64,000 nt of DNA, taken from positions 248,001 to 312,000 of the forward strand of contig SVIZ01000002.1 in NCBI GenBank assembly GCA_015069205.1, in the 5' to 3' direction. Positions 46,003 to 51,913 of this stretch are shown one piece after another; position 1 is the stretch's first letter; the number at the start of each line of letters is the position of its first letter. A model generated the notes under the pieces. That model was not told the DNA's origin. It did not search any database and saw nothing but the letters and a program-made list of their open reading frames with translations. Source of the DNA: Oscillospiraceae bacterium. Lineage in GTDB: Bacteria; Bacillota; Clostridia; Saccharofermentanales; Saccharofermentanaceae. The position numbers were made by a program, and so were the translations under genes.

Positions 46003-47511
46003 TTATTCAGCGGTTTTTCTGACAAACAGATTAACATCATAAGACCAGTATACAATCTCAAAGTCTTCGTCATGGATGAGAGCGTTGTATAAGGTACAGT
46101 CAGTATTCGAGTGTATGATCAAATAATTGAAATCATATTTGTCGATGAAATCACGGTAATAAATTCCTCCGTCAAACATGGATGCATACTCATAGAAGTA
46201 GTCATATTCTTTATTATTTGATTTTAGGAAAACTTCTGCTCTTCCGTCTATATACGGATGGTAGCCGTTGAATTCGAGATACTGACCATCGTTAAAGTTG
46301 GTGTAGAGAATAACGGGTCCCTCCACTTTGTCGAGAATCTCTATCGCATCGTCCAAATGGGAAAGGTGATCTTCTTGAAAAAACTTGATGTCGTTTGTAA
46401 TAAAGAATCTTGCCTCACAGACATAGATGAAACAGATGCTGAAAAAGATAATGCTAAGCACTTTGGCTGTTTTGGTCATTATTTTTTTGATGGGTTTAGC
46501 AAGATTAAGGATGCTTAAATCTCTTAAGACGTAAGTAAATGCCGGAACTCCGAAGAACATGAAATAAGGGATTCCTTTTAATTGCAGCAAGCCTAAGACC
46601 AGTGTTCCGAAGAACAAAAGGAAGAAGCGGATCGTTGGCACCTTTTTTCTGATAAAGCAAAGAATGACTATTGTAATGCCGAGTGTAATGAAGAGGAGAT
46701 TTCCTTCGCTTCCATGCAGACTTGTGGGCTTCATTTCCATGATGATCGTAAAACTGTCCTCGCCGTAGGAAGAGAACAGATAAAGCATGTTATCTATGCC
46801 ATATGGATTAAGAAGACCTGCAACTCCGCTGACAGCAGCTACTGCGATAAGGTACAGGAAATTTCCCTGAGCTTCCTTCTTGAAGTTTTCGATCTTGAGC
46901 GGTATGGCCGAGAGGAGATAAGGAAGCATAAATACAAAGAGCATGAGCCACATTGCGGCGTGAAGATTTATCAGAAGAAGCGATAAAACGGGAATACCGA
47001 TGAGGTATTTAGATTTCTTTGTCTGGACGTGCATTTCAAGCAGGTAGATCTCGACCATCAGGATCGTATATGTGAATATCTGAGGCCTCGTTACCATGAA
47101 CGCATCGAAAATGAAGAAGTTCGTAAGTGCCGCAACGGCAACAGCAATCACATCGTTCTTGGAGATCAGGACTGTAATGCGGTATGTAAAGTAGCAGATT
47201 ACAGTATTGCAGATATATACCAGCGAGATAACTCCGTATTTACCCAGGAAAGTGTAAACATAATAGAAAATGACGGAGCTGAGCCACTGCTGTACCACGA
47301 TCCTCATTGACGAGTGCATCGACAGGACATCGGTAAACGGGAATCCGTGATGAACGATATAATCACCGATCGAATAAAGAAAATAGAAGTCGCAGTCAAG
47401 TACTCTTACCTGGAAAAACGATATGATGATAGGGAGAGCAAGGATTATAGCCTTAACCCGTTTTGACAGTTTATCTGTATTAGCTTGGAGGGAGATGGTA
47501 TTCTCAGTCAT
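46003..47511 (-). CDS. Multi-pass membrane protein (GT-C-like, unknown function)
   Basis: Multiple TM helices with D/E-containing first loop (VRVLDCDFYFLYSIGDYIVHHGFPFTDVLSMHSS) and C-terminal soluble domain; start MTENTISL preferred over the ORF track start 47532. Confidence 0.7.
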   Translation of the reverse strand: MTENTISLQANTDKLSKRVKAIILALPIIISFFQVRVLDCDFYFLYSIGDYIVHHGFPFTDVLSMHSSMRIVVQQWLSSVIFYYVYTFLGKYGVISLVYICNTVICYFTYRITVLISKNDVIAVAVAALTNFFIFDAFMVTRPQIFTYTILMVEIYLLEMHVQTKKSKYLIGIPVLSLLLINLHAAMWLMLFVFMLPYLLSAIPLKIENFKKEAQGNFLYLIAVAAVSGVAGLLNPYGIDNMLYLFSSYGEDSFTIIMEMKPTSLHGSEGNLLFITLGITIVILCFIRKKVPTIRFFLLFFGTLVLGLLQLKGIPYFMFFGVPAFTYVLRDLSILNLAKPIKKIMTKTAKVLSIIFFSICFIYVCEARFFITNDIKFFQEDHLSHLDDAIEILDKVEGPVILYTNFNDGQYLEFNGYHPYIDGRAEVFLKSNNKEYDYFYEYASMFDGGIYYRDFIDKYDFNYLIIHSNTDCTLYNALIHDEDFEIVYWSYDVNLFVRKTAE

Positions 47512-47634
47512 TTTAATTGCTCCGTTCAACAAATTAATTAATTATATCATTATCGCAGGTGCGGGAAATTTTACAAAAATAAGAAATAGGTTAAAATACT
47601 GTGAGTAGTAAATACAGAATAGGAGAAGTGGACG

Positions 47635-49425: not shown

Positions 49426-49959
49426 ATGAATTGTTCAGAATACTTGGTCGATTTTCTGATTAAGAAAGGCATTACCGACGTGTTCGGATACGCGGGCGGT
49501 TACATCGTGCCTTTCATGGATGCGCTTTATAAGCGCCGTGACGAGATCACTACACATGTCTGCTATAACGAGCAGGGATGCGCGCTTGCAGCCGACGGCT
49601 TTGCCAGAACATCAGGCAAGCTCGGCGTTTATTTCACGACATCAGGCCCCGGTGCCGTCAACGGACTTTCCGGTCTTGCAGACTGCTGGTTCGACGGTTT
49701 CCCGATAATGGGCATCTCAGGCAACGTTCCCACACACGAGATGAAGGGTTTCTCGGGAATCCGCCAGAACGGTTTCCAGGAGATGGACCTCGTCTCAATG
49801 ACAAGGAGCGTATCCAAGTATTCGGTTACTGCAAACAGCGGGGCAGACTTCCCCGAGATCGTTTCAAGAGCCTACAACATGGCTTTACTCGGAAGGAAAG
49901 GAGGGGTTGTAATTGATTTTCCGCTCGACATACAGCAAGCCGATATTATTGGCGGGTAA
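49426..49959 (+). CDS. ThDP-dependent enzyme, N-terminal PYR domain only (acetolactate synthase-like, split)
   Basis: DVFGYAGGYIVPFMDAL, CYNEQGCALAADGFARTSGKLGVYFTTSGPGAVNGLSGLADCWFDGFPIMGISGNVP, GGVVIDFPLDIQ; ends at TAA where the fold would normally continue. Confidence 0.85.
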   Translation: MNCSEYLVDFLIKKGITDVFGYAGGYIVPFMDALYKRRDEITTHVCYNEQGCALAADGFARTSGKLGVYFTTSGPGAVNGLSGLADCWFDGFPIMGISGNVPTHEMKGFSGIRQNGFQEMDLVSMTRSVSKYSVTANSGADFPEIVSRAYNMALLGRKGGVVIDFPLDIQQADIIGG

Positions 49960-51025
49960 CGGCATACGCACATCAGGCGCCGTTAAGCTTTTACATGAAT
50001 TTGCAAAGAAGACCAACATCCCTGTCCTTACCACGATGAACGCTGTCGATCTGGCTCAGGACGACCTTCATATCGGATTTATCGGCACACACGGCAACCG
50101 TGTTGCCAACATGATAATCAAGGAATGCGACGTCATCATCTCCATCGGTGCAAGACTCGGCATCAGACAGGCAGGAAAGGATACGAGAAACTTTGCCCCC
50201 CAGGCAGATCTCATCCGCTGTGACATCGATGAATACGAGCTCGCAAGAACGATAAAGGAAGATGAGAGAAAGTATCACTCTGATGCAAGAGACTTCCTCC
50301 AGATGCTCCTTAACGAAGATATTCCGGATTATTCAGAGTGGAAGAATAAGTGCCTTGAAGCCAAAAAAATTCTCGAATCTTACGATAAGCAGCCCGGCAA
50401 CATAGCTGTAGAGAAGATCTCATCACTTCTTCCTGAGAGCCCTGTCGTATCAGTAGACGTGGGAATGAACCAGTGCTGGTGCGCGCAGTCACTTCATCTG
50501 AAGGGCTATGAGGGCAGGATCCATATAAGCGGCGGATACGGCACGATGGGCTGCGGACTTCCGTTTGCCATCGGTTCGTCCATCGCACAGGGAAAAGCAA
50601 AGTCATTCTGCGTAACGGGTGATGGCGGATTCCAGATGAATATCCAGGAATTGGAGACGGTTCACAGAGAGCAGCTCCCCATCAAGATCTTCATCCTGAA
50701 CAACCATGTACTGGGTAAGATCTCTGAGACACAGTATTTCGAGCACGAGGGAAGATATGCCGCTACGGCTATCTCAGGCGGCTACACCGTTCCTTCATTC
50801 CAAAAGATCTCAGAAGCATACGGCATCAAGGCCGCTACGCTTGCATCATACGAGGAACTCGATAACTACAAGGAATGGATCGAAGATGACGAGCCTTGTC
50901 TTTTCGACATTCAGTTGCCTGAGGCATCTTTCCTTACGCCGAAGATCAAGTTTGAGACCGGCAAGATGAGACCTGAACTCGATGATGCTATAATCTCACA
51001 GGTCGAAAATGTTTTGAGAGGTTGA
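49913..51025 (+). CDS. ThDP-dependent enzyme, TH3 and ThDP-binding (PP) domains (acetolactate synthase-like, split), TTG start
   Basis: SKPILLAGNGIRTSGAVKLLHEFAKKTNIPVLTTMNAVD; GDGGFQMNIQELETVHREQLPIKIFILNN ThDP motif. SD AAAGGAGG 8 nt before TTG; overlaps the upstream ORF by 47 bp in another frame. Confidence 0.82.
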   Translation: MIFRSTYSKPILLAGNGIRTSGAVKLLHEFAKKTNIPVLTTMNAVDLAQDDLHIGFIGTHGNRVANMIIKECDVIISIGARLGIRQAGKDTRNFAPQADLIRCDIDEYELARTIKEDERKYHSDARDFLQMLLNEDIPDYSEWKNKCLEAKKILESYDKQPGNIAVEKISSLLPESPVVSVDVGMNQCWCAQSLHLKGYEGRIHISGGYGTMGCGLPFAIGSSIAQGKAKSFCVTGDGGFQMNIQELETVHREQLPIKIFILNNHVLGKISETQYFEHEGRYAATAISGGYTVPSFQKISEAYGIKAATLASYEELDNYKEWIEDDEPCLFDIQLPEASFLTPKIKFETGKMRPELDDAIISQVENVLRG

Positions 51026-51031
51026 TCCGGT

Positions 51032-51913
51032 TTGCTCGACAGTAAGAGAATGTATTCAACATATTTCAAGGAGTATATCCTGGACGATGCCATGTTAAAG
51101 CGTCTTCAGGAAGAACTTTTCAAGATCCTCCTTGATATCGATTATGTGTGCAAGAAGCACGACATCAAGTATATGCTTTGCGGCGGTACCCTGATCGGTG
51201 CCATCAGACACAAGGGTTTTATTCCGTGGGATGACGACATTGATCTCATGATGATCAGAAGCGAAGCTGAAAAGCTCGTTGTTGCCATGCGCGAGGAATT
51301 CCCTGAGAAATATATGGTCGGCGTTCCTTTGTGCGATGAACAGTATGTGGTCAAATCGATCAAGATCTTCAAGCGCGGAACGAAGTATGTCGAGATCCCT
51401 TTCGCAGGGCTCAGCAAATTCGACATGCTGTTCGTTGACGTTCTCGTAATCGAGAATGTTCCGGCAAATAAACTTGCTAGAATGATCCACAGCAAGTACT
51501 ACAATTTCATATACAAGGCAGCCAGTGTCTGCGTTGACTATAAGTATCCGTCTCCCGTAATCGAGGAGAAGGCAAAGGATAATCCGGAGCTTGCAAAATA
51601 CTGGAAGACACGTAAGAGACTCGGAAGCTTTTTCTCACACATCGGCGGAATGAAGTTCTATCTCAAGCAATGCGAAAAGGTAGGCAACATGAAAAAGCAC
51701 ACAGGCTGGCTTGGCATTCCTTCAGGCGGATGTGTTGTCGAGAATTTCCCCGAGAAGATGTATCTTGAACTTACAACGGCCGAATTCTGCGGACGGCAGT
51801 TCCCGGTACCGAAGGATTACGATGAGAACTTAAGAGTGGTATTCGGTGACTATATGCAGATCCCGGAGCCTTCAAAGCGCGACTGTCATGTCGCATATAA
51901 GATCGAATTCTGA
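51032..51913 (+). CDS. LicD family phosphotransferase-like protein
   Basis: YMLCGGTLIGAIRHKGFIPWDDDIDLMMIRSEAEKL; KDYDENLRVVFGDYMQIP. Start TTG 51032 or ATG 51050. Confidence 0.92.
   Translation: MLDSKRMYSTYFKEYILDDAMLKRLQEELFKILLDIDYVCKKHDIKYMLCGGTLIGAIRHKGFIPWDDDIDLMMIRSEAEKLVVAMREEFPEKYMVGVPLCDEQYVVKSIKIFKRGTKYVEIPFAGLSKFDMLFVDVLVIENVPANKLARMIHSKYYNFIYKAASVCVDYKYPSPVIEEKAKDNPELAKYWKTRKRLGSFFSHIGGMKFYLKQCEKVGNMKKHTGWLGIPSGGCVVENFPEKMYLELTTAEFCGRQFPVPKDYDENLRVVFGDYMQIPEPSKRDCHVAYKIEF

Follow-up and report, generated by a model that had tools for sequence, protein, structure and literature searches.

The locus lies in a 64,000-nt stretch of contig SVIZ01000002.1 from an Oscillospiraceae bacterium (the window), where two adjacent open reading frames (ORFs) share the domains of a thiamine diphosphate (ThDP)-dependent enzyme (Table 1). 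The domains PF02776, PF00205 and PF02775 are present in the order typical of the superfamily and are spread over the pair: ORF1 matches PF02776 across the full profile, and ORF2 matches positions 12-137 of the 137 in PF00205, so that the first 11 profile positions of TH3 are missing, followed by the whole of PF02775. Both halves match acetolactate synthase (AHAS) models and structures, in consecutive parts. A reading made earlier from the sequence alone (hereafter the sequence-only reading) had assigned the catalytic Glu to ORF1 and a GDG...NN ThDP motif to ORF2, and both were found. The former is Glu49 in CYNEQG, which is invariant in 27 loci; the latter comprises residues 236-238 and 263-264 of ORF2 and is kept as GDG...(N/D)N in all full-length loci. 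What the pair lacks is the superfamily trait of a single polypeptide with a PYR-TH3 linker. In decarboxylase- and AHAS-type ThDP enzymes, the active site is normally built by two chains, one contributing its PYR domain and the other its PP domain. Because the cofactor sits between domains of different chains, severing PYR from TH3 would not necessarily damage the active site. An AlphaFold2 model of ORF2 (pLDDT 82.7, least confident in loops that surround the expected active site) found its best PDB folds in the carboligase JanthE (8rph) and AHAS (6lpi). The model of ORF1 alone was poor (pLDDT 46, from a shallow alignment) and was set aside as structural support.

Table 1. Coordinates of the split ThDP enzyme genes, their junction and their neighbors in the window.
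Feature	Position	Strand	Evidence
HisC-like aminotransferase, 352 aa	47635..48693	+	TIGR01141, 235 bits (cutoff of 276.55 not reached); conserved neighbor
IspD/TarI-like cytidylyltransferase, 237 aa	48700..49413	+	NF001183 (D-ribitol-5-phosphate cytidylyltransferase), 168.4 bits (cutoff, 166)
ORF1, PYR-domain subunit, 177 aa	49426..49959	+	PF02776, E=1.8e-33
AAAGGAGG, Shine-Dalgarno-like site within ORF1, coding K-G-G, 8 nt before the TTG	49897..49904	+	
TAA in the ORF2 frame, immediately before the TTG	49910..49912	+	Direct reading; nearest relatives have 0 extra upstream codons
Dual-coding overlap, 47 nt: last 14 codons and TAA stop of ORF1 / start of ORF2	49913..49959	+	27/27 overlapping loci
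ORF2, TH3+PP-domain subunit, 370 aa, TTG start	49913..51025	+	PF00205, E=2.8e-28; PF02775, E=1.6e-35
LicD-family protein, 293 aa, probably transfers the CDP-activated unit	51032..51913	+	PF04991, E=2.2e-37
Second LicD-family protein, 272 aa	51914..52732	-	PF04991, E=3.9e-46

The ORF coordinates, the length of the overlap and the position of AAAGGAGG relative to the TTG were all present as the sequence-only reading had claimed. ORF2 is read in the +1 frame relative to ORF1, and since an in-frame TAA abuts its TTG, no upstream extension of that frame is possible. The Shine-Dalgarno (SD)-like site has an exact anti-SD match of at least 5 nt in 21 of the 27 overlapping loci; the remaining six carry G-rich variants with a 4-nt exact match. 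This site, together with the internal start codon, suggests that production of ORF1 and ORF2 is probably translationally coupled. The use of a rare TTG start follows from the codons of ORF1, read directly: its Ile/Leu-Asp codons leave no place for an ATG. At three loci (L014, L044 and L063), ORF1 is apparently also TTG-initiated (LNCSEYL...).

The break coincides with a loss of sequence. In the window pair, ORF1 continues for 7 residues after DIQ and ORF2 has 8 residues before KPI, while single-chain relatives have a linker of 33-44 residues from “...DIQ/DIF” to “RPVILAG” (33-34 in the nearest ones). The pair is therefore without most of this linker, as the sequence-only reading had noted, although its estimate of 40-50 residues for the linker was somewhat too large. 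Predicted RNA folds of the junction were only weakly better than shuffles (z from -0.7 to -1.7), and dual coding (below) accounts for the pattern, so we rejected the idea that RNA structure conserves the junction. Some of these folds pair the SD region with the UUUUCC just 3’ of the TTG (window positions 49890-49935 and equivalents), a candidate coupling hairpin.

The neighborhood of the pair points to a surface polymer. Nearly every locus with sequence available upstream of the pair has a related nucleotidyltransferase gene there, and most loci have a HisC-like aminotransferase near the pair; a short SDR is found in L044 and L051, and an RmlB-like SDR in L055, L060 and L063. Further surroundings include LicD proteins, CDP-glycerol-type glycerophosphotransferases, glycosyltransferases and polysaccharide export proteins. 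At one locus (L065:3460-5517), a 685-aa fusion of an NTP_transf_3 nucleotidyltransferase and a HisC-like aminotransferase lies directly upstream of the pair, which suggests consecutive steps. A hisC scoring above the cutoff (300.5 bits) is located elsewhere in the genome, on contig C25. The genome also has other IspD-like genes, one of which, near 20.3-21.1 kb of the window, was considered as part of a sister cluster, an idea then rejected: it adjoins radA and looks like a housekeeping IspD. Beyond the aminotransferase gene, window positions 46003-47532 (minus strand) encode a protein with multiple membrane spans and no Pfam or NCBIfam family. It is a hypervariable neighbor, with 50-62% identity between genomes where the genes flanking it are mostly 85-100% identical, and L035 and L036 have a second copy beyond the licD pair. 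Elsewhere, contig C8 of the same genome (G000) carries an apparent canonical phosphonate locus (L072:3002-6593), with a transaminase, a PEP mutase whose N-terminal part resembles a cytidylyltransferase, and a single-chain phosphonopyruvate decarboxylase.

These neighbors bear on whether the pair could be an ordinary AHAS or phosphonopyruvate decarboxylase that has merely been split. AHAS large subunits provide the best family-level similarity, and the combination of LicD and nucleotidyltransferase neighbors recalls phosphonate tailoring loci (PMC6697681). However, C36 of this genome encodes another AHAS-like enzyme, a single chain of 561 aa. The two halves, each scored separately, reach 153.3 and 230.5 bits against a TIGR00118 cutoff of 538. 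The substrate-side motif also differs: ORF2 has LGKISETQ, with an invariant Lys269, where the AHAS-like enzyme of the genome has LGMVRQWQ and the nearest single-chain relatives LGMIRHFQ. We conjecture that Lys269 would suit an anionic substrate. As for phosphonates, the genome’s only PEP mutase match is the one on C8, beside its own transaminase and single-chain decarboxylase, and there is none at the split-pair locus, which makes a phosphonate pathway unlikely here. The neighbors of the pair are instead a polyol-phosphate cytidylyltransferase and an aminotransferase or SDR. Taken together, these features leave a merely split AHAS or phosphonopyruvate decarboxylase as an unlikely identity for the pair.

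We searched for the same split in other genomes. It was present in nine other genomes of the same genus, with ORF2 at 73-98% identity and junction DNA nearly unchanged. A scan of genome contigs yielded 31 loci. Over Bacillota, Spirochaetota and Bacteroidota, the split was seen in 27 overlapping and 4 separate loci. The 27 overlapping loci (Bacillota plus one Spirochaetota, counting those with readable junction DNA and including the window) all have the same TTG and the same 47-nt overlap. An identical junction in every overlapping locus sampled is far from chance. Identity was 79-100% for ORF1 across 26 relatives and 66-98% for ORF2 across 27 relatives. Isolates with the split include [Clostridium] symbiosum ATCC 14940, Eubacterium uniforme ATCC 35992 and Lachnospiraceae bacterium XPB1003; because isolates carry the junction, metagenome assembly is not its cause. 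The split pair is rare and patchily distributed: no further close ORF1 homolog turned up in 399 genomes drawn evenly from the phylum, and a plasmid search gave distant matches only (<60% identity). The same pair in a Treponema metagenome-assembled genome (MAG; L042) and in Bacteroidota MAGs (L050, L051, L053 and L056), with ORF2 at 66-75% identity, suggests transfer among gut and rumen bacteria, and the split pair has probably moved horizontally.

Both halves are under strong purifying selection. Outside the overlap, dN/dS measured against eight near relatives was 0.00-0.08 for each half. Within the overlap, synonymous change in the ORF1 frame collapses: pS was 0.021, compared with 0.544 in the rest of ORF1, among 10 near genomes, and 0.158 compared with 0.752 outside across all analyzed Bacillota and Spirochaetota loci. 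The lowest 15-codon synonymous window of the whole of ORF1 is exactly the overlap. Bacteroidota, in which the genes do not overlap, serve as a control, and there the homologous codons differ freely (0.98). Since synonymous change is suppressed where the frames overlap and free where the genes are separate, we conclude that the overlap sequence is held by two reading frames.

The Bacteroidota loci are also informative about the products. In all four, the halves are non-overlapping genes with a spacer of 10-18 nt: ORF1 has acquired a new tail (e.g., one ending in DIQQVQYVTPVY before the stop), which is followed by the spacer and then by the ORF2 start, an ATG in the position homologous to that of the TTG. 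ORF2 keeps its M(I/V)F N-terminus there, though this segment is no longer dual-coding, and ORF1 retains G-G (preceded by K, R or C) without an SD at that site. These separate cistrons establish, by independent evidence, where ORF2 starts, and they show that two polypeptides are produced at these loci.

The +1 relation of the frames and the almost invariant sequence of the 47-nt overlap would also be expected of a programmed +1 ribosomal frameshift within the overlap, yielding one fused chain, either alone or beside the two separate products. A shift near the ORF1 stop would still produce a plausible strand (QADIIGG-NGIR). Such a frameshift is not required, however, since Bacteroidota encode the halves as fully separate cistrons, with a spacer and an ATG. 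Moreover, the final ORF1 codon before the TAA varies (GGG, AGG, CGG or TGG), so that no slippery site is conserved; the invariance of the overlap is explained by dual coding and is gone where the genes separate; and an SD and TTG start are retained. The main text of the GeneTack frameshift survey (PMC3711429) makes no mention of thiamine or acetolactate enzymes. We rejected an obligatory frameshift fusion, given the separate cistrons and the absence of a slip codon that stays constant. Low-level frameshifting may occur at the junction, but we regard a programmed frameshift as a quite improbable account of the gene arrangement.

Split enzymes can subfunctionalise, and one subunit might by now be catalytic alone, with the other recruited for regulation or structure. 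The invariant catalytic Glu of ORF1, the conserved ThDP motif of ORF2 and the strong constraint on both halves make this very unlikely. Least credible, to the point of being negligible, is the alternative that the sequence-only reading had offered, a deletion plus frameshift, here taken as recent and as leaving either a pseudogene in decay or a collapsed MAG assembly: the linker is absent right at the frame change, as after a deletion, and most relatives are MAGs, but assemblies made independently, named isolates and members of several phyla all show an identical junction, dN/dS is at most 0.08 in both halves, and the overlap is under dual-coding constraint. The other possibility raised by that reading, a genuine two-subunit enzyme, is supported by the occurrence of the split in isolates and across three phyla, by its selection, and by the separate cistrons of Bacteroidota.

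In a maximum-likelihood tree, the split enzymes formed one clade (100/100) apart from their single-chain relatives. The four Bacteroidota members formed one clade (97/90) that grouped with the overlapping member L014 (99/93), in a tree whose basal forks are open and some of whose stems are long, so that finer branching is unsure. By parsimony, a single fission arose first in the overlapping form and was later resolved to separate genes in Bacteroidota. The split was probably made by an ancient deletion and frame change, fixed as one event, and not by a recent lesion. Continuous ORFs with a linker were found only in clearly different relatives, the nearest being single-chain homologs of the Saccharofermentans group (L015-L020, ~559 aa), which have ~40% identity over the fused length and an unrelated neighborhood. 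At the position of the SD-like site, single-chain relatives code G-R-(K/P/R)-G-P-V (20/20 read; K-G-P in L015-L020) and the split enzymes G-R-K-G-G-V. The P-to-G change in ORF1 creates GGAGG, from which we infer selection for an ORF2 ribosome site.

We conclude that the pair is very probably a genuine heteromeric ThDP-dependent 2-oxoacid decarboxylase or carboligase of the AHAS/JanthE-like (PYR-TH3-PP) family, born by gene fission. An ancestral single polypeptide would have been broken once at the PYR-TH3 boundary, in an event that changed the frame and removed most of the linker. ORF1 would give the PYR half of the active site, with the catalytic Glu, and ORF2 the PP half, with the motif for the ThDP diphosphate and Mg2+, plus TH3. 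Initiation of ORF2 at the TTG inside ORF1, from AAAGGAGG, would allow the subunits to be made together, probably in a coupled manner.

Known systems resemble this heteromeric enzyme in part. The AHAS large subunit (TIGR00118; PDB 6lpi, 5ahk) shares PYR, TH3, PP, the catalytic Glu and GDG...NN, and is the best sequence match of both halves; it is, however, one chain (at least 548 aa among the PDB homologs listed) with a full PYR-TH3 linker, where the split pair has two chains, most of the linker gone and a different substrate-side motif. The JanthE-type carboligase (PDB 8rph-8rpj; PMC12188165) comes closest in fold to the ORF2 model (E 2e-28, TMq 0.87), though it is a single chain of ~600 aa with 28% identity over ORF2. 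No split homolog occurred among the PDB matches listed, all of which were single chains of at least 548 aa, and our search of a literature collection found no described split of the PYR-TH3-PP ThDP family. Two-subunit ThDP decarboxylases have been called rare, with examples in the biosynthesis of coenzyme M and of rhizocticin and, most recently, in riboflavin catabolism (PMC12746152). In these systems (ComDE, RhiEF and LumKL; PMC12141560, PMC12746152), PYR and PP are encoded by separate adjacent genes and form one enzyme, and the split pair, known here from its genes, likewise separates PYR from PP. They lack TH3 (LumK and LumL are 20 and 23 kDa), whereas the 370-aa ORF2 carries TH3 (PF00205) together with PP. 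ComDE and RhiEF are regarded as ancestral to fused forms, with TH3 added later, and the reason for their separate genes has been called enigmatic (PMC12141560); the split pair, by contrast, derives from a fused ancestor.

The gene neighborhood suggests a pathway in which the carbonyl product of the ThDP pair is aminated or reduced, activated with CTP and placed on a surface polymer, a class of pathway to which we give a little better than an even chance. The ThDP pair would convert a 2-oxoacid to a carbonyl compound, perhaps phosphorylated, which would then be aminated by the HisC-like enzyme or reduced by an SDR. Activation of this product with CTP by the IspD/TarI-like enzyme would give a CDP-activated (amino)polyol-phosphate, and LicD or CDP-glycerol-type transferases would transfer the unit to the polymer. 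More tentatively still, we propose that the pair may be an obligately heteromeric, fission-born ThDP carboligase with a dual-coding 47-nt junction, in which the K-G-P to K-G-G change in ORF1 was fixed as the ribosome site of ORF2, and that it may make a new phospho-ketose or aldehyde precursor of CDP-activated (amino)alditol phosphates for the surface polymers of gut bacteria. If so, this route would parallel the logic by which DXS, DXR and IspD act in the MEP pathway.

We are confident of the split and of the selection that acts on it, and moderately confident of the pathway class. The split family runs opposite to the usual story, in which separate genes become fused: here a fused enzyme that already had TH3 underwent a single break, and its halves spread over three phyla. 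Its fused, overlapping and separate forms make up a natural series for testing what enzyme fission costs, what it gains and how it happens, as well as how a dual-coding junction is born. In rumen and gut bacteria, the split pair marks an uncharacterized biosynthetic step in surface-polymer loci.
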